A stretch of DNA of 64,000 nucleotides from an uncultured Actinomycetes bacterium (GTDB lineage Bacteria > Actinomycetota > Thermoleophilia > Solirubrobacterales > 70-9). Below, piece by piece: positions 55,843 to 62,765 of this stretch. Where the stretch lies: the NCBI GenBank assembly GCA_946482365.1, contig CAMLQY010000003.1:62001-126000 (forward strand), written 5' to 3'. A model generated the notes under the pieces. It worked only from the letters and a program-made list of their open reading frames with translations, made no database searches and was not told the origin of the DNA. Numbering within the stretch: the first letter of the stretch is position 1; each line of letters opens with the position of its first letter. The translations under genes and the position numbers were made by a program.

Positions 55843-55915
55843 GGCGAGGTAGCTCAGTTGGTAGAGCACACGACTGAAAATCGTGGTGTCGCCGGTTCGA
55901 TTCCGGCCCTCGCCA
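55843..55915 (+). tRNA. tRNA-Phe (GAA)
   Basis: A complete cloverleaf: acceptor GGCGAGG/CCTCGCC with discriminator A, D arm GCTCAGTTGGTAGAGC, anticodon arm CACGA-CTGAAAA-TCGTG with anticodon GAA, and T arm GCCGG-TTCGATT-CCGGC. CCA is not encoded. Its 3' half is the left attachment repeat of the downstream island. Confidence 0.97.
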
Positions 55916-55918
55916 TTC
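55868..55918 (+). repeat. attL-like direct repeat (tRNA-Phe 3' part)
   Basis: 51 bp from ACACGACTGAAAATCG to CGCCATTC, identical to 60846-60896, offset 4978 bp. It covers the anticodon loop through the 3' end of the tRNA, the usual attachment region for tRNA-targeting integrases. Confidence 0.92.
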
Positions 55919-55966
55919 GCTTTCTCCTGCAAATCGACGGTTTTGAATAGGTCAGCGATCGCGTCG

Positions 55967-56000
55967 TTTGGGCTACCGATAGCCCATTCATAGCCCAATC
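55967..56000. repeat. subterminal palindromic repeat, left end of island
   Basis: Begins TTTGGGCTAC and ends TAGCCCAATC, with GGGCTA/TAGCCC arms. It matches the complement of 60676-60709 at 26 of 34 positions. It may be a recombinase arm site or a repeated regulatory palindrome. Confidence 0.55.
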
Positions 56001-56065
56001 AAGTGGCTCGAGTGGCCTTCGAATGACTTTCGGCTGACGAAGTGAGGAGCCGGGCTGGCATCAAA

Positions 56066-56087: not shown

Positions 56088-56187
56088 CAGCCGACTCGGA
56101 TCGACGCGGGCCGAGTATCGAATTCAAGGAGATAACGAGGCAGAATCGTGTTCTCTTCAGTTCGATCAAGTGGGACACCACTAGGTG

Positions 56188-56193
56188 TATAAT
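56188..56193 (+). promoter_or_regulatory. -10 box TATAAT giving a leaderless vapB transcript
   Basis: A consensus TATAAT ends 6 nt before the ATG at 56200, so transcription would start at or next to the A of ATG. No ribosome-binding site precedes the ATG. No good -35 is visible. Confidence 0.5.
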
Positions 56194-56199
56194 GATGCT

Positions 56200-56463
56200 A
56201 TGAGTCGAACTCAGATCTACCTTGGCGAAGGCGAGTTGGAGCTGCTCAATCGCGCCTCACAAGAGACTGGGGCGTCACGCTCGGAGCTGATCCGCCGCGC
56301 GGTGCGAGCCACCTTCGGTCGCCAGGGCAAGGACGAGAGGCTCAGTGGGCTTCGCGCCAGCGCCGGCTCGTGGCGGGGGCGCCGGCGCACCGGCGCTGAG
56401 TACGTCGACGCCATGCGCGGTGGCGACCTGAATGAGCGCCTGTCCCGTCTAGGCGTCAAGTGA
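56200..56463 (+). CDS. vapB: ribbon-helix-helix antitoxin (VapB-like)
   Basis: 87 residues from ATG 56200. [20 protein letters not shown] followed by [18 protein letters not shown] is a ribbon-helix-helix DNA-binding domain. The basic, Gly/Arg-rich linker ([20 protein letters not shown]) resembles toxin-contacting tails of this family. First gene of the island after the tRNA. Its stop overlaps the toxin start (GTGA). Confidence 0.82.
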
Positions 56464-56837
56464 AGCTGCTCGACACGAGCGTCGCAATCGACCACCTGCG
56501 CGGTTTGCCGGAGGCGGTCGAGCTCCTGAGCGGCCTGATCGAGGCCGAGGAGCTTCTCTTCGCGAGTGAGGTAGTCCGCTTCGAGCTCCTGGCCGGTGTC
56601 CGCAAAGGCGAGGTCGAAGCGCTCGAGCAGTTCTTCTCTGCCCTCTCTTGGGTGCCCGTCGGCGAGGAGGTGTCCCGAGCCGCCGGCGAGCTTGCCCAGC
56701 GCCACCGCCGCTCCCACAGCGGTATCGATGACGTCGACTACCTGATCGCCGCTACAACGCTGCTGCTCGAGGCCGACCTGCTCACCACGAACGTAAGACA
56801 CTTCCCGATGATTCGGGGGCTCAAGCCGGCCTATTAA
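56460..56837 (+). CDS. vapC: PIN-domain toxin (VapC)
   Basis: 125 residues from GTG 56460. [13 protein letters not shown] gives Asp5, VVRFELLAG gives Glu42, [12 protein letters not shown] gives Asp90/91/93, and [12 protein letters not shown] the final polar position; this is a complete PIN RNase active site. It differs strongly from the VapC at 27633. In an integrase-less island it may act as an addiction module keeping the island in the chromosome. Confidence 0.87.
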
Positions 56838-56866: not shown

Positions 56867-57268
56867 CTAAGCATCCATCGCCTTGCTGTTGCGAATTGCC
56901 TGATAGATGAATTCCCATCGCTCCTGGGTTTTCGGCGGCTCGCCGCGGAACTGGATACGGGCGAGCATCTCGATGTCGGCCTGGGGAAGCTTTGCCTGTT
57001 TGGCGAACGCGAGTAGAGCAGCGGGTCGCTTCGCGACCGGATCGGTGATGATCGGTCGCCCCATCAGGTCCGACATTGCGACCCCGAGGGCCTTGGCGAT
57101 CGCATAGAGCTTGTCGGCAGAGGGATGCTTGCCGTTATCGCTGTCGTTTTCCAGCTCGGAGATGTAGCTCTTCGAGACGCCGGACTTGGCCGCCAGTTGA
57201 CTGGCTGTCATTCCTCGATCTTCTCGGTACTTCTTGATTCGACTACCGACGCCAGCCTTTCTCGTCAT
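56867..57268 (-). CDS. XRE-family helix-turn-helix regulator
   Basis: 133 residues. RIKKYREDRGMTASQLAAKS, then GVSKSYISELENDSDNGKHP is a Cro/C1-type HTH (residues 10-65). The C-terminal helices (PVAKRPAALLAFAKQAKLPQ) may contact the partner protease. It lies 19 nt downstream of the ImmA/IrrE-like gene on the same strand. In such pairs the protease cleaves the XRE repressor to switch on a mobile element or stress genes. Two near-identical palindromes upstream of the pair are its likely operators. Confidence 0.88.
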   Translation of the reverse strand: MTRKAGVGSRIKKYREDRGMTASQLAAKSGVSKSYISELENDSDNGKHPSADKLYAIAKALGVAMSDLMGRPIITDPVAKRPAALLAFAKQAKLPQADIEMLARIQFRGEPPKTQERWEFIYQAIRNSKAMDA

Positions 57269-57287: not shown

Positions 57288-58115
57288 TCAATCGGCCCTC
57301 TCTACCAAGGCCAGCACCCGGCCATTGGCTCCGTAGCGCTTAGCGCTGATTCGTACCTCGCCGAGTGGCTCGGCACAAAGCTCGTCGATGTTGGCGACCT
57401 CGTCGATGATCTCGCCCTGCAGGGCCCGCGCTAGCCCATCCTCGTCGGCCGACTTGTGCTGTGGCACAAACGGCCAGTTGCCATTCGCGATCCGATAGTC
57501 AACGCGCAACTTCGCTGGCAGCTCATCCTCGCGGCCCGCCTCAGATGGCTTGTGGCGCTCGCTTAGAACGAGCATCATCGTGGAACCGCGGCTGAGGCTG
57601 ACGGCGCGGCGGGAGGTAGCTTCGACACTGGCCTCGAACGCATCCGCTAGCTTCTCGACCACTTTCAAGTCGAGGCCTTTCTCTGGAAGCAGCGGTCGGA
57701 GGAGATCGCAGGGGAGCAATAGCTCAGCGCCAGCGACGTCGCACATCCGCTCCAGCCAGCTTCGCTCACCATTGCAGCGGAACTGGCGTGCCTGCCGGAA
57801 ACCCGGCAGAAGCGTGTGACCTGCCTCGTGGCAGATCGTGAAGCGTTGGCGTCTTCGTCCATCGCGGCGACGGACTCGCACCTCGAATCCGCTATCTCCC
57901 GGCTGCAGCATCCCCGCGAATGGCTGCTCGACCTCTTCGATCGAGGCGATCCCGCGCAGCGAAGCAAGCATCCTCACGGGAACCGGAGGTTCGGAGACCT
58001 CGGCTTCTTCAAGCATCTCTTGGCAGAGACGGCGCATGACCAGCTCATCGGAGAGTCTCGGTGCCGAATGACGCAGTTGCTCAAAGAGCGAGAGCTGTTC
58101 GGTTTTCGGGATCAC
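57288..58115 (-). CDS. ImmA/IrrE-family metallopeptidase
   Basis: 275 residues. The zinc motif HEAGH (96-100) is in RFTICHEAGHTLLPGF, followed by MCDVAGAELLLPCDLLRPLL, a typical ImmA/IrrE helix. The C-terminal half (about 190-275) is a possible sensor domain with VDYRIANGNWPFVPQH. The GTG start at 58115 lies inside an operator-like palindrome, so repressor binding would also block the start region. Predicted to inactivate the neighbouring XRE repressor upon a signal. Confidence 0.88.
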   Translation of the reverse strand: MIPKTEQLSLFEQLRHSAPRLSDELVMRRLCQEMLEEAEVSEPPVPVRMLASLRGIASIEEVEQPFAGMLQPGDSGFEVRVRRRDGRRRQRFTICHEAGHTLLPGFRQARQFRCNGERSWLERMCDVAGAELLLPCDLLRPLLPEKGLDLKVVEKLADAFEASVEATSRRAVSLSRGSTMMLVLSERHKPSEAGREDELPAKLRVDYRIANGNWPFVPQHKSADEDGLARALQGEIIDEVANIDELCAEPLGEVRISAKRYGANGRVLALVERAD

Positions 58116-58119
58116 GAAC
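58104..58119. promoter_or_regulatory. operator candidate O2, overlapping the protease start
   Basis: TTTCGGGATCACGAAC matches 14 of 16 positions of the perfect palindrome at 58162-58177 and covers the GTG of the ImmA/IrrE gene. The two sites are 58 bp apart, centre to centre. Confidence 0.65.
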
Positions 58120-58161: not shown

Positions 58162-58177
58162 GTTCGTGATCACGAAC
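58162..58177. promoter_or_regulatory. operator candidate O1 in the divergent promoter
   Basis: GTTCGTGATCACGAAC is a perfect 16-bp palindrome, 65 bp upstream of the Ubl gene and 47 bp upstream of the protease gene. Its size and symmetry suit an XRE dimer. Confidence 0.7.
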
Positions 58178-58241: not shown

Positions 58242-58526
58242 ATGAGTGGATCCAGTAGCAGCGAGGTGGCCAAGAAGCCGCCGAAGCCCGAGAAACAGGT
58301 CGTCATCCATATCGACCGCAAACCGTTCAAGGTGAGTGAGGGTGAGATGAGCGGCGCGCAGCTGCGGTCCCTCCCCAACCCCGACATTGGCCCCGAGTTC
58401 GACCTCTGGCTCGAGGTCCCCGGTGGCGAGGACAAGCGCATCGAGAACGAGGAGTCGGTGAAGCTCCGCAACGGGATGCACTTCTTCACCGCGCCCAGCG
58501 TGATCAATCCGGGGCACTCATGCTGA
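58242..58526 (+). CDS. ubiquitin-like protein (Multiubiquitin family, single domain)
   Basis: 94 residues, strong AAAGGAGAAGAG before the ATG. A flexible N-terminus (SGSSSSEVAKKPPKPEK) leads into a beta-grasp domain: VVIHIDRKPFKVSEGEMSGA, LPNPDIGPEFDLWLEVPG and RIENEESVKLRNGMHFFTAP. This is the bacterial Multiubiquitin pattern, usually in several tandem copies; here only one. The end is NPGHSC, so trimming after the Gly by the JAB domain encoded two genes downstream would expose a Gly terminus suitable for E1 activation (inference). First gene of the operon; it overlaps the E2-like gene by 7 nt. Confidence 0.85.
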   Translation: MSGSSSSEVAKKPPKPEKQVVIHIDRKPFKVSEGEMSGAQLRSLPNPDIGPEFDLWLEVPGGEDKRIENEESVKLRNGMHFFTAPSVINPGHSC

Positions 58527-58906
58527 GCGAGGACGACGAGGCGTACCTGAAGGAGCGCCGTTTCGACTACGAGGTGATCTCAGAGGGGCAGATGTTTTCG
58601 CTCATCATCCGCGGTTTTCACCTTCCGTCGGGGTATGTGCCGGCCGTTGCCGACCTGCTTCTGCGGCTGCCCGGCGGGTTCCCCGACGCCGCGCCGGACA
58701 TGTTCTGGACGCATCCGGTCGTCGGCTACGCCGGGGGTGGGGCCCCGCCGGCAACTGAGACCCGGCTCGAATATGAGGGCCGGATTTGGCAGCGCTGGTC
58801 GCGTCATCTTGCGGTCGCTTGGCGCCCCGGAGTCGACAATCTGCGTAGCTATTTGCGCTTGATCCGCACCGACCTCGAAAAGAACGCTCCGGTGCAAGCA
58901 GCGTGA
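58520..58906 (+). CDS. prokaryotic E2-family-E-like protein, no cysteine
   Basis: 128 residues. ISEGQMFSLIIRGFHLPSGY, LLLRLPGGFPDAAPDMFWT and WQRWSRHLAVAWRPGVDNLR fit the prokaryotic E2 family E found in Multiubiquitin operons; PDAAPDMFW resembles the E2 P.YP..PP segment. E2 enzymes normally carry the ubiquitin-like protein on a cysteine, but this protein contains no Cys at all, so it cannot form a thioester. It could be a scaffold, or conjugation may go directly from E1. Overlaps the E1 gene (GTGA). Confidence 0.8.
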   Translation: MLSEDDEAYLKERRFDYEVISEGQMFSLIIRGFHLPSGYVPAVADLLLRLPGGFPDAAPDMFWTHPVVGYAGGGAPPATETRLEYEGRIWQRWSRHLAVAWRPGVDNLRSYLRLIRTDLEKNAPVQAA

Positions 58907-60261
58907 GGGAGGTCGGAATCGCAACGAGCGAGCGTCTCTGGGAGGAGCTCTGCCTAGCTTTGAACGATCGAGAGGAGTCGGCCGCCATTCTCCTCGCTGG
59001 TCATATCGAGGAGGCAGACCGCATCACGTTCTGCCTCAACCGCGCAATTTGGGTGCCTGCGGAAGCATATGAGATGCGTTCCCCCATCGAGATGCGAATT
59101 AGCTCGGAGGGGTGGATGCCAGCCTTGGCCGAGGCCGCCGCAGAAGACTGGCAGCCGATCTTCTTTCACACTCACCCGGCCGGCGGGCCCCTGCCATCAC
59201 GTTATGACGAGGAGGCCGCCCGCAAGCTCGCACCGGTCTTCGAAGCCCGAACCGGCAAGCCTTTCGCCAGCTTGATTCTCGGCGACTCACCGACCTCGCC
59301 TCGCTTCACCGGGACGCTTGGCGAAGACCCAATCGGCCGTCTGCGCGTGGTCGGCGACCGCGTCCGTCTTCTCGATGCCGCCGACCGGTTGCGCAAGTCC
59401 GAGTCCTCGCTTGATTCGTTTGATCGCCAGATAAGGGCATTTGGCAGCGACGGACAGAGGGTTCTTCGACGGCTCCGGGTCGGAGTTGTCGGTGGCGGCG
59501 GAACCGGCTCAGCTGTGTACGAGCAGCTGGTCCGGCTCGGGGTTGGCGAGATCGTCGTGATCGATGACGATGAGGTCAGCGCTACCAACCTCACCCGCAT
59601 CCACGGCTCGACAATGGCCGATGTAGGACAGCCGAAGGTCGAGGTTCTGGCCAACAGCGCCCGCGCGATTGGCTTCGGCACCACAGTTATGGCCCACCGA
59701 GCCAGGATTACCGAGCGAAGCGTGTTCGAAGAGCTGCGCGGATGCGACATCGTCTTCGGTTGCACTGACGACAACGCCGGACGCGCCATTCTCTCTCGCC
59801 TCGCCTACTACTACTGCGTGATGGTGATCGATGTCGGTGTTGTGATCAGCGCTCGCGACGGCGAGGTATCTGGCCTCGATGCGCGCATGAGCGTGATGGC
59901 CCCGGGAACACCATGTCTTTTCTGCCGCGGGCGGATTGACCCCAATCGCTTGCGCGAAGAGCAGCTTCCCGATGCCGAGCGCAAACAACTCGCCGACGAG
60001 GGCTATGCCCAAGGTCTCGCCGATCCCGATCCCGCCGTCCTCACCTATACGACCATGATCGCCAGCTATGCGGTCGACGAGATGTTGCAGCGTCTCTTCG
60101 GTTTTGGCGAAGAGCCCCGCTCTTCCGAGGTTCTCATTCGCCCGTTGCAGCGCGAGGTCAGGCGGTTGAGCGGCGCATCCATCGAGGGTCACTTCTGCGC
60201 TGACCTACGGTTTCTCGGTCGGGCCGATTGCGAGCCGCCGATGGGGATTCCGTGGTCGTGA
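58903..60261 (+). CDS. JAB deubiquitinase-like plus ThiF/E1 fusion
   Basis: 452 residues, GTG start. Residues 1-150 form a JAB/MPN protease: JAMM ligands His89, His91 (FFHTHPAG), Ser99 and Asp102, with an acidic residue near 24-25. Residues 165-452 form a ThiF/MoeB-like E1: adenylate loop GVVGGGGTGSAV (194-205), VVIDDDEVSATNLTRI, GCTDDNAGR and Cys pair CLFC (338, 341) that probably binds zinc with CADLRFLGRADC near the end. One protein would therefore both process and activate the Ubl. Confidence 0.9.
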   Translation: MREVGIATSERLWEELCLALNDREESAAILLAGHIEEADRITFCLNRAIWVPAEAYEMRSPIEMRISSEGWMPALAEAAAEDWQPIFFHTHPAGGPLPSRYDEEAARKLAPVFEARTGKPFASLILGDSPTSPRFTGTLGEDPIGRLRVVGDRVRLLDAADRLRKSESSLDSFDRQIRAFGSDGQRVLRRLRVGVVGGGGTGSAVYEQLVRLGVGEIVVIDDDEVSATNLTRIHGSTMADVGQPKVEVLANSARAIGFGTTVMAHRARITERSVFEELRGCDIVFGCTDDNAGRAILSRLAYYYCVMVIDVGVVISARDGEVSGLDARMSVMAPGTPCLFCRGRIDPNRLREEQLPDAERKQLADEGYAQGLADPDPAVLTYTTMIASYAVDEMLQRLFGFGEEPRSSEVLIRPLQREVRRLSGASIEGHFCADLRFLGRADCEPPMGIPWS

Positions 60262-60599
60262 AAGCCCGTCTAATCGACTGGTGGCGTCGCCGTCGCATCA
60301 CTTCCCCTCGGCTGGACCGGGTTGAGCGTTACGCGTCGCAGGCTGAACTGCCCGAGAGCCTTCCGCGCCATCAACTCGCAATCGTCGGAGCGCCGAGGAA
60401 GCCCAAGTGGCTGGTGTTCGAATGCCCCTGCGGGGAGGGGCACCGACTCCAAGTGAACCTCTCGGTGGGGAGGTATCCGAACTGGCGTCTAGTCGACGCT
60501 GAGACCGGTCCGAGCGTATTTCCCTCGGTCGATTTTGATGCTTCTGAGCGGCATTGCCATTTCTGGATCCGCGATGGCCGCGTTCGCTGGTCGAGGTAA
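60258..60599 (+). CDS. DUF6527-type protein of the ubiquitin-like operon
   Basis: 113 residues from GTG 60258, overlapping the E1 stop (GTGA); the frame is open to 60228 but that part duplicates E1 coding. KWLVFECPCGEGHRLQVNLS followed by PNWRLVD, PSVDF and HCHFWIRDGRVRW is the DUF6527 pattern, likely a small zinc-binding domain (CPCG plus HCHFW). The family is found with bacterial Multiubiquitin/E1/E2 operons. Its biochemical role is unknown to me; a ligase-like or target-recognition role is possible. Confidence 0.78.
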   Translation: MKARLIDWWRRRRITSPRLDRVERYASQAELPESLPRHQLAIVGAPRKPKWLVFECPCGEGHRLQVNLSVGRYPNWRLVDAETGPSVFPSVDFDASERHCHFWIRDGRVRWSR

Positions 60600-60845
60600 T
60601 CGGGTGCAGCCTGCGCGGATCGCTGCGCTCGATTTCGGCTGTAGTCGGCCGGGACAGGAAAAGATCGATCCCGTTGAGTGGGCTACGAGATGGCTCTTCG
60701 TAGCCCAAACCCACCGGAGTCGGCCCGGAACCAAGGGTATCCAGGCTCCCCAGACCGGCTACAATGCGCCCTGAGGTAGCCCCGAATTTCCGCATGGTGA
60801 TGCGGTTTCAGCGACATATCCGGGCTGGCTTTTGCCGGCCCGGAT
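60600..60845. other. non-coding right end of the island, with palindrome and hairpin
   Basis: No gene is supported. 60676-60709 (GGGCTAC...GTAGCCC) is the counterpart of the left-end palindrome at 55967-56000. 60818-60829/60834-60845 is a 12-bp hairpin with TTTT loop (one G-T pair) that abuts the right 51-bp repeat exactly. Both may be recombination sites; the hairpin could instead end the Ubl transcript. Confidence 0.55.
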
Positions 60846-60896
60846 ACACGACTGAAAATCGTGGTGTCGCCGGTTCGATTCCGGCCCTCGCCATTC
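60846..60896 (+). repeat. attR-like direct repeat (tRNA-Phe fragment)
   Basis: Perfect copy of 55868-55918. It lacks the acceptor 5' strand and D arm, so it is not a functional tRNA. It marks the right end of a 4978-bp island. Confidence 0.92.
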
Positions 60897-60932: not shown

Positions 60933-62765
60933 TCAGAGAGCTGAGTCTGGCGGGGGACCCGGCCAGGTTGCCAGGATGTGTCTCGCGAGTTGGGTGCCTC
61001 TATCGGCAATGGACTCCTCGGTGAAGCTGTCGGGATAGTCCTCGACCAGTTGCTGGTTCATCGCCAAGAGGCTGTTTTGCGCCAGGGCTGGCCGCTTCAC
61101 GTCCCATGCTGCATTCGACATTGAAGGGTTCAGCCTGTCGGTGACAAGAGTGAGGTTCCCGAGCAGGTTGATTGCCGCTTCGCGCTGCTCGGCGGAGCAT
61201 CGTCGTCCGACGGGAGCGGCCAGTGCGCCATCCATTTTCGAGGCATGATGTGCTCTATCTGGAGTTTCGATGGCCTCTGGAGTTTCTCGTGCTTGGCAGT
61301 TCTCATTCGGCTGCGCTCGACCTCCCAGAGGATGTCGAGTAGCCGTTCCCGGGCGATTGCTCCCGTTCCGTATGCGCGATTCTGAGTAAGTATCGGCATG
61401 AGATCGGAATCCCGAGGCCAAGACCGGGAACTTCCCTCCATTTTGGCTAGCTGACGCTCGATGATCTCCGATGCGTCGCCGGGTTCTGCCTTGACCTCTT
61501 TGACCAGTTCCGTAAAGAGGCGGTTATAGCCCTGGGCAGATCCCCGCATGAGCATTCGCCTGACCAGATAGTCCTCAATGAGGAAAAGGCTGCGATCAAC
61601 GGTCTCCGCGCGGAGACCGGCTGCCTCTTGCTTAAAGAGATAGAGCACCAGGGGAAAAGGGGTCGTCGTGTTCAGCGTTTCCAGACGCTCGAAGAATGCA
61701 CGCCTGGAAGAGCCCTCTGGTTGGGAGGAGAACGAGCGATACAAACGCGCGTCCTCCGCGAATTCAGGAATGAGGGACTTTACATCGGGGGAGTCTGTCT
61801 CGAACATCTTTGTGAAGGATTTGAAGAGATAGTCCGAGTTGACCTCCGTACCTAGTCGCATCTGCAGCCAGTGTTGGAGAAAGACATCAGCCCGAACGCG
61901 GTCGAGGCGACCGAGTCTGATCTTCTTCTGCCACCAGTCGTCCTCGATCCAGACCCAGTACTGCTCGTAAAGCTCTTCGGCGTCGTCGCCTCCCTTTTCG
62001 TGTTGGAAGACGAAGTTCTTGACAAGGTCAATCGCATTCAGGGGAGAGCCCCGGTCGTTGAGCGTCTCGAAGATGACTTGTGCGTTGTCACGAGAGTCAA
62101 GGTCGATCCAAACGATCTTGAGCTGCGAGCGAACCACTGCCTCGAGCGCCTGAAACCGAATCTTGCGCTCGGGCTCCGGGACGGTGGAGGCCCAATCGGT
62201 GACGGCGCTCTCGAAGTAGTCGAAGCACTGGACGATCCGGTGGCTCCTGAGTGTGGGGTCGACCTCGTTACCGCTCATTACTGCGCGAAAGGCAGCGCGA
62301 TCATGCTTTGTCGGCCAGACCTTGAACACCGCATCTGGTTGCCCCTTCGATAGGTAGGGGCGGTTCTCCAAAAGGTCCCGAAGGACATCGGCTTGTTCTG
62401 AAGCCCCCGCCTGTGCGAGGGCGCGGGCAGCGGCGCCCACCAGAAGCTGAATCGTCGTCAGCCTCTGCTGGCCGTCAATGATCTCCCTGAGCTCGAGCTG
62501 GCCTGCGCCAAAGGGCATGAGCTTGACGACGATTGCTCCCAGAAAGTGCACGGGCAGCTTCTCGCTGGGGGGCGCGACCTCGTCAGGGCCGGCCGCCTCG
62601 ACGTAGGCATTGACGACCTCGAGAACATCGGCCCAGAACGGGGCCCACTGGCGCTCGCGTTCCCACGCATAGCGCCGCTGGAAGACGGGCACTATGTACC
62701 GAACATCCCGCCTGAAGATCGCATCGAATGACTGGGCCTGAGCGTCGATCGCACTATCAAATCAT
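60933..62765 (-). pseudogene. frameshifted GmrSD-type restriction gene (DUF262 + DUF1524)
   Basis: Reading from the right: an ATG at 62765 directly follows the upstream stop (TAGATG), but the frame breaks within 3 codons; the conserved N-terminus SFDAIFRRDVRYIVPVFQRR is in the next frame and lacks its own start. DUF262 follows with the nucleotide-binding DGQQRLTT motif and IFETLNDRGSPLNAIDLVK. The DUF1524 HNH core QIEHIMPRKWMAHWPLP is interrupted near 61195-61200; the rest (AEQREAAINLLGNLTLVTDR) continues in another frame to 60933. Either decay or two assembly errors. Intact homologs cut modified (glucosylated) DNA. Confidence 0.82.

Follow-up and report, generated by a model that had tools for sequence, protein, structure and literature searches.

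A complete DUF6527-bearing Bub operon with a cysteine-free E2 beside CapH/CapP-like genes on a small tRNA-Phe island

How might a ubiquitin-like protein be passed to its targets by an operon whose E2 contains no cysteine? The question is raised by four overlapping genes at positions 58242–60599 of a 64,000-nucleotide stretch (the window) of contig CAMLQY010000003.1, from an uncultured actinomycete of the order Solirubrobacterales. As the original prediction from the sequence had it, these genes encode a ubiquitin-like protein (Ubl), an E2-like protein, a JAMM/JAB protease fused to a ThiF-type E1 and a DUF6527 protein. Profile searches place each above the curated Pfam cut-offs (Multi_ubiq, Prok-E2_E, Prok-JAB and ThiF, DUF6527; Table 1), and the order Ubl, E2, JAB–E1, DUF6527 recurs across several phyla. 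Because the scores exceed the cut-offs and the gene order is conserved, that assignment stands. The absence of cysteine from the E2 is likewise borne out by a count over its 128 residues, which leaves the protein without the canonical catalytic cysteine of E2s. As read from the open reading frame (ORF) list and the sequence, adjacent genes overlap by 7 nucleotides (nt) at the Ubl/E2 junction (ATGCTGA) and by 4 nt at E2/JAB–E1 and JAB–E1/DUF6527; the last value presupposes the GTG start at 60258, the longest DUF6527 ORF beginning at TTG 60228. We consider it probable that the locus is a complete, DUF6527-bearing Bub (bacterial ubiquitination-like) operon under a CapH/CapP switch, carried on a non-autonomous 4,978-bp insertion at a tRNA-Phe gene and working as set out below.

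The operon is real, looks intact and complete, and belongs to the known, recently described Bub family. Among solved structures, the best matches of the E2 and the JAB–E1 fusion are Citrobacter BubB and BubCD, and the Bub assignment follows from these matches (Citrobacter Bub proteins are represented by Protein Data Bank entries 9ea4, 9ea5, 9ea8, 9eae, 9eav and 9d59). BubCD matches the fusion protein over residues 21–406 (phmmer E 9.9e-30), and, together with the homologies to BubB and BubCD, a Multi_ubiq Ubl is found as the first gene. The JAMM residues H89, H91, S99 and D102 are each present in 22 of 23 aligned rows. Conjugation of the Ubl to targets is predicted. A biosynthetic set built around a sulphur carrier of the ThiS/MoaD type, in place of a conjugation system, was already disfavoured, and we give it almost no credence: although the E1 half also matches ThiF/MoeB models, the 25 NCBIfam matches shown (of 38) all lie far under their cut-offs, and the locus contains an E2 and a JAB domain that match Bub proteins.

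Eighteen loci with an E2 of the window's kind were compared (L001, L004–L007 and L013–L025). All keep the order of the parts, apart from departures in which the Ubl and E2 are fused into one gene (L015, L017, L018, L021, L022), the Ubl was not detected (L023) or the E1 is split between frames (L006). Loci with the conserved order span the Alpha- and Gammaproteobacteria, Cyanobacteria, Planctomycetota, Abditibacteriota and Actinomycetota (Microbacterium), and plasmid-borne relatives are known from several phyla. Because the 18 loci were selected through their resemblance to the window, they show breadth and not frequency. For frequency, a search with the Prok-E2_E profile PF14462 at E 0.001 matched 3 genomes among 396 of Actinomycetota and 14 among 343 of Planctomycetota, where two of the matches fall below the cut-off. 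Only a few homologs of the E2, Ubl and DUF6527 proteins carry organism names; these are labelled Solirubrobacterales, which suggests a host of that order. Single-Ubl genes occur also in L001, L004, L005, L013, L014 and L016, and the 64 close Ubl homologs are 54–118 residues long, from a search that admits only 0.55–1.75 times the query length and in which longer multi-Ubl proteins could not appear. The supposition that the window holds an unusual version of the system is not upheld, with single Ubls, cysteine-free E2s and CapH/CapP neighbours all ordinary among its relatives. A single chain of 217 residues (P0115) carries both Prok-E2_E and Multi_ubiq. In the alphaproteobacterial loci L004, L005, L013 and L014 a Fic gene stands upstream in place of CapH/CapP (joined in L004, L005 and L013 by a CopG/DUF6290-type gene), and an uncharacterised gene lies 3' of DUF6527.

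Among the 119 close E2s listed and aligned, of 419 found, 82 have no Cys at all, and in the alignment of the window with these proteins Cys is frequent in just one column, position 27, remote from the motif WQRWSRH. This motif is nearly invariant over the 120 sequences (W93 99%, the remainder 100%), and the fully conserved positions include W90, Q91, R92, S94, R95, H96, W101, R102 and D106. The S-x-H element is present in 22 of 22 more diverse E2 rows and in 32 of the 34 loci described below, the two without it (L055 and L057) both having Cys nearby; the E2s of more distant WSRH loci carry 0–3 Cys. In canonical E2s the Cys lies shortly before a W-x-P element. Because WQRWSRH occupies the corresponding place, ahead of W101-R102-P103, Ser94 is the obvious candidate for a nucleophile. 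We regard as rather unlikely the alternative of a purely scaffolding E2 that forms no covalent intermediate, like the ubiquitin E2 variants (UEV); Ser94 and His96 would then serve just the fold or the contact with the E1, which would hand the Ubl from the adenylate directly to targets. Against it, the near-total conservation of WQRWSRH looks like that of an active site, although other E2 positions are 100% conserved too. The proteins from L055 and L057 are distant Prok-E2_E members with Cys where the window has SRH (WSWWC and WKWYC), and could show how Cys- and Ser-type E2s diverged. Because the parts of this compact Bub system (a single Ubl, E2, JAB–E1 and DUF6527) are separate small proteins, the cysteine-free transfer step is directly testable.

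The Ubl is probably a precursor, as judged from the residues that follow its INPG motif. The Gly of this motif (G91) is 97% conserved over the window and 64 homologs, and the number of residues after [IV][NT]PG in the homologs is 3 in 50, 2 in 4, 4 in 1, 5 in 2, 6 in 2 and none in 2, the motif not being found in the other 3. The ATGCTGA overlap encodes Met-Leu for the E2 and, in the frame of the Ubl, Cys followed by the stop codon, and thereby forces the terminal Cys seen in 40 of the 64 homologs; the 98% conservation of E2 Leu2 is consistent with this constraint. In other clades the Ubl natively ends in TTEG (L007, L016, L020) or TTEG runs directly into the E2 (L015, L017, L018). In the homologous Citrobacter Ubl–E2 fusion (L021), the deposited BubA chains stop at residue 229, a glycine, and a BubB chain begins at 230. 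From the native TTEG ends and the Citrobacter chain ends, a cut after glycine is therefore a likely common requirement, and we infer that the tail of the window Ubl is removed.

DUF6527 tracks the type of E2 and looks tightly tied to the WSRH form. After exclusion of duplicates (L008–L011) and the short L012, 34 loci were read, 25 of WSRH type (24 distinct, L051 having the same sequence as L024) and 9 with another E2. DUF6527 stands beside the E2 and E1 genes in all 24 distinct WSRH loci versus none of the 9 others, which have FSWH, VSYH, VSWH or none of these and include two near contig ends (L053, L057); the motif of L047 was taken from a separate reading, the script having printed another stretch. 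Counted by whole genome over a sample of 739, DUF6527 is found in 7 of 7 genomes with a WSRH-type E2 (G001, G095, G422, G493, G501, G553, G566) versus none of the 10 whose E2_E matches are of other types (G045, G292, G488, G521, G525, G576, G589, G640, G655, G722; motif unread in G488). The one-sided p-value is 5e-5 if genomes are independent, and 1.2e-4 without G001 (then 6 of 6), the centre of the comparison, which was found by similarity; both values are optimistic because the compared genomes share ancestry, which counts against the strength of the coupling. A weak DUF6527 could be missed, since the search scores at most 15–17 candidates per genome. The association offers a concrete hypothesis for a little-understood domain.

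The conserved residues of DUF6527 bear on what it might do. Cys56, Pro57, Trp76, Pro89, Ser90, His101, Gly107 and Trp111 are invariant in an alignment of 35 sequences (the window, 16 of 19 homologs and 18 loci; P0192, P0202 and P0203 left out). That the protein is a hydrolase is guesswork based on these residues, because the predicted model of the protein is middling (pLDDT 71, predicted local distance difference test), a point to be set against the mechanism proposed below. A zinc-binding or E1-binding accessory protein without hydrolase activity is a strong competitor, to which we give slightly less than an even chance. The pattern CPCG..H...CH in the window's clade would suit such a protein, as would the position of DUF6527 next to the E1 gene in every such operon found, another E1 class included, but in 19 diverse rows the positions of Cys58, His62 and Cys100 are not constant, in contrast to the fixed Cys56, Ser90 and His101.

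DUF6527 occurs without PF14462 in seven further genomes, and also in the control Caulobacter vibrioides. In four of the seven (L045, L046, L071, L072) a short gene is followed by one for a ThiF protein and then by DUF6527; in L045, L046 and L071 the first two of these genes match Pfam Multi_ubiq and DUF6791 plus ThiF, the other E1 class. By Pfam, no JAB domain is present in the operons of L045, L046 and L071 and no Prok-E2_E in those of all four, whose genomes each have Prok-JAB matches on other contigs. These computations suggest, short of proof, that DUF6527 also partners another Ubl pathway, one that lacks a JAB domain. An M78 peptidase gene lies just upstream in L046 and a DUF2188 gene just upstream in L071. 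The remaining three (L073, L074, L075) are orphan DUF6527 proteins of a different type that keep the PS and CH residues; L073 and L075, the two that were run, match phrog_3362, a phage family of unknown function, to which the window protein has a weak match (E 2.1e-5). The sole phage record matched (E 0.08, weak) has DUF6527 in a gene run after the terminase, a context more suggestive of a separate function in the phage than of counter-defence. We rate as a long shot the wider notion that DUF6527 is a new Ubl-hydrolase class (Ser90/His101, perhaps Cys56), obligatory with the WSRH serine-type E2 and JAB-less in the DUF6791–ThiF operons, whose phage orphans would serve counter-defence by stripping or aborting conjugation.

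An XRE repressor gene and an M78 peptidase gene adjoin the operon and diverge from it, as in known CapH/CapP pairs. An ImmA/XRE control pair had been predicted here and described as unusual; the pair is present, but its genes score as CapH and CapP, which are reported with Bub. PMC13373217 reports 219 of 544 Bub operons with CapW or CapH plus CapP. Of 17 plasmid loci, 7 (L006, L007, L015, L016, L017, L019, L020) have ImmA or ImmA–XRE genes close to the operon, as called by annotation and, in L006, by a weak sequence match. The sensing of single-stranded DNA and the repressor cleavage described for CapH/CapP are putative for the window pair. The pattern TTCGNGATCACGAA has exact matches in the 64 kb only at the two 14-nt sites listed in Table 1, and with 2 mismatches gives 7 strand matches at 4 places versus 1.57 expected, figures that must be discounted in that the pattern was written after the inverted repeat had been seen. 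We propose that the two sites are CapH operators.

In the mechanism that we favour, CapH bound to the two palindromes would keep the operon off until CapP cleaves CapH after DNA damage. The Ubl precursor would be trimmed after Gly91, and this glycine would be adenylated by the ThiF half of the JAB–E1 fusion. Because the E2 has no cysteine, its WSRH segment is proposed either to carry the Ubl as a Ser94 oxyester or to position it, and the JAB half could take the Ubl off again. Within the Ser-E2 branch, DUF6527 may act as a hydrolase on the Ubl, using Ser90 and His101 to trim the precursor and/or to hydrolyse oxyester intermediates. Several further points weigh against parts of this scheme. Cys56 of DUF6527 is invariant too, so that Ser90/His101 is one reading among others; S-x-H is also found in E2s of loci without DUF6527 (FSWH, VSYH); and the DUF6791–ThiF operons keep DUF6527 though their Ubls show no C-terminal Gly. 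Trimming alone is insufficient to explain DUF6527, because L007, L016 and L020, whose Ubls natively end in TTEG, carry it, whereas L052, with a Ubl–E2 fusion, does not. DUF6527 is named in no paper of the open literature searched, a scope that leaves out subscription papers, including two on Bub, and the papers defining Bub may already settle the role of DUF6527 or the E2 chemistry.

The operon had been placed in a small island, which is confirmed, with exact ends set by a perfect 51-nt direct repeat. The repeat runs from the anticodon loop to the 3' end of tRNA-Phe without further extension, and the window holds two copies only (3 mismatches over 28 nt allowed), one at each border, with the intact tRNA on one side, as in site-specific tRNA insertions. 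The island measures 4,978 bp from repeat start to repeat start and contains VapB, VapC, CapH, CapP and the four Bub genes. Its G+C content is 62.1%, versus 71.0% to the left; to the right, the value is 59.6% across the adjoining GmrSD stretch and 71.6% farther on. Pfam finds no integrase family in the eight assigned genes or in ten further island ORFs of 89–233 residues (shorter ORFs unscanned), and these ten match no Pfam family. An autonomous integrative element was considered and rejected, no integrase being found between the repeats in the ORFs scanned; the most plausible reading is that the island is a non-autonomous insertion, mobilised in trans, with the tRNA on one side and an older segment of low G+C on the other. 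With a regulator, a toxin–antitoxin pair and a conjugation operon in 5 kb, the insertion illustrates the small size that a mobile unit of this kind can have. A GmrSD-type restriction gene (60933–62692, minus strand; GmrSD_N 101 bits) adjoins the right repeat and looks broken or mis-sequenced, its C-terminal part seeming to continue in another frame (ORF 60933–61421). Just inside the att-like repeats is a 46-nt inverted repeat (55966–56011 and 60665–60710, 76% complementary), which may be chance or unrelated hairpins.

The operon could also be a general DNA-damage stress module and no phage-defence system, a tenable though less favoured possibility. DNA damage is described as the driver of CapH/CapP-type control, and PMC13373217 itself leaves the question open for Bub and presents these operons as not shown to protect against phage, which likewise tells against a defence role in our scheme. 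Against the stress module stand the apparently mobile tRNA island with its VapBC pair, the GmrSD-type gene just beyond, and the plasmid-borne relatives. A review (PMC12687455) places Bub among systems whose main action seems to be against phages, and the window operon may serve in defence.

Table 1. Positions of the operon, its neighbours and the island borders in the window
Feature	Positions	Strand	Evidence
Ubl (BubA-like), 94 aa, probable precursor	58242..58526	+	Pfam Multi_ubiq 41.3 bits vs cut-off 24.5
3-residue tail HSC after Gly91 of Ubl	58515..58523	+	G91 conservation, homolog tails
E2 (BubB-like), no cysteine, WQRWSRH with Ser94 and His96	58520..58906	+	Prok-E2_E 125.4 vs 25
JAB–E1 fusion (BubCD-like), GTG start	58903..60261	+	ThiF 138.5 vs 28.1; Prok-JAB 29.2 vs 25
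DUF6527 protein, GTG start 60258	60258..60599	+	Pfam DUF6527 69 vs 23.6
CapH-like XRE repressor	56867..57268	-	PADLOC capH 60.6 bits; HTH_3 60.5 bits
CapP-like M78 (ImmA/IrrE) peptidase, HEAGH zinc motif	57288..58115	-	PADLOC capP 86.2 bits; Peptidase_M78 36.3 bits
Candidate CapH operator TTCGGGATCACGAA, overlaps capP start	58105..58118	.	Pattern search
Candidate CapH operator TTCGTGATCACGAA, perfect palindrome, between capP and Ubl gene	58163..58176	.	Pattern search
tRNA-Phe (GAA), intact, left island end	55843..55915	+	ARAGORN; Rfam RF00005 75.9 bits
Left 51-nt direct repeat copy, attL-like, tRNA 3' end	55868..55918	+	Repeat search
Right 51-nt direct repeat copy, attR-like	60846..60896	+	Repeat search
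VapB-like RHH (ribbon–helix–helix) antitoxin	56185..56463	+	Pfam RHH_1 33.3 bits
VapC-like PIN toxin	56460..56837	+	Pfam PIN 51.3 bits; 4-nt overlap with VapB
Stem-loop 3' of operon, GGGCTACGA / TCGTAGCCC, possible terminator	60680..60706	+	Read in sequence

Several known systems share parts with the window. CBASS (cyclic oligonucleotide-based antiphage signalling system) with a Cap2 E1–E2 fusion was rejected as an identity: the window E1 and E2 are separate genes, and a Pfam scan finds no CD-NTase among the eight island proteins and ten other island ORFs. Bil operons (BilABCD) hold a Ubl, E1, E2 and JAB together, as here. The window differs from Bil in that its E2 has no Cys, its JAB domain is fused to the E1, and its E2 and E1 matches go to Bub; the Ubl has only marginal matches to Methylobacterium BilA (E 0.74). 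Citrobacter Bub (L021, L022) has the Ubl part and the E2 in one gene, whereas the window has one free Ubl and a separate E2; its upstream gene pair resembles capK/capS, as inferred from annotation, in place of CapH/CapP, and its BubCD is without the CxxC present in the window E1. The pSYSX plasmid of Synechocystis sp. PCC 6803 (SGL_RS01630 to SGL_RS01610, SGL_RS20235) carries Ubl, E2, ThiF and DUF6527 genes in the window's order. Its divergent XRE/ImmA pair is called by annotation and was not recovered by phmmer from the window's XRE and ImmA proteins at E 0.01. The Synechocystis Ubl has two domains and a native TTEG end, whereas the window encodes a single Ubl with a tail.

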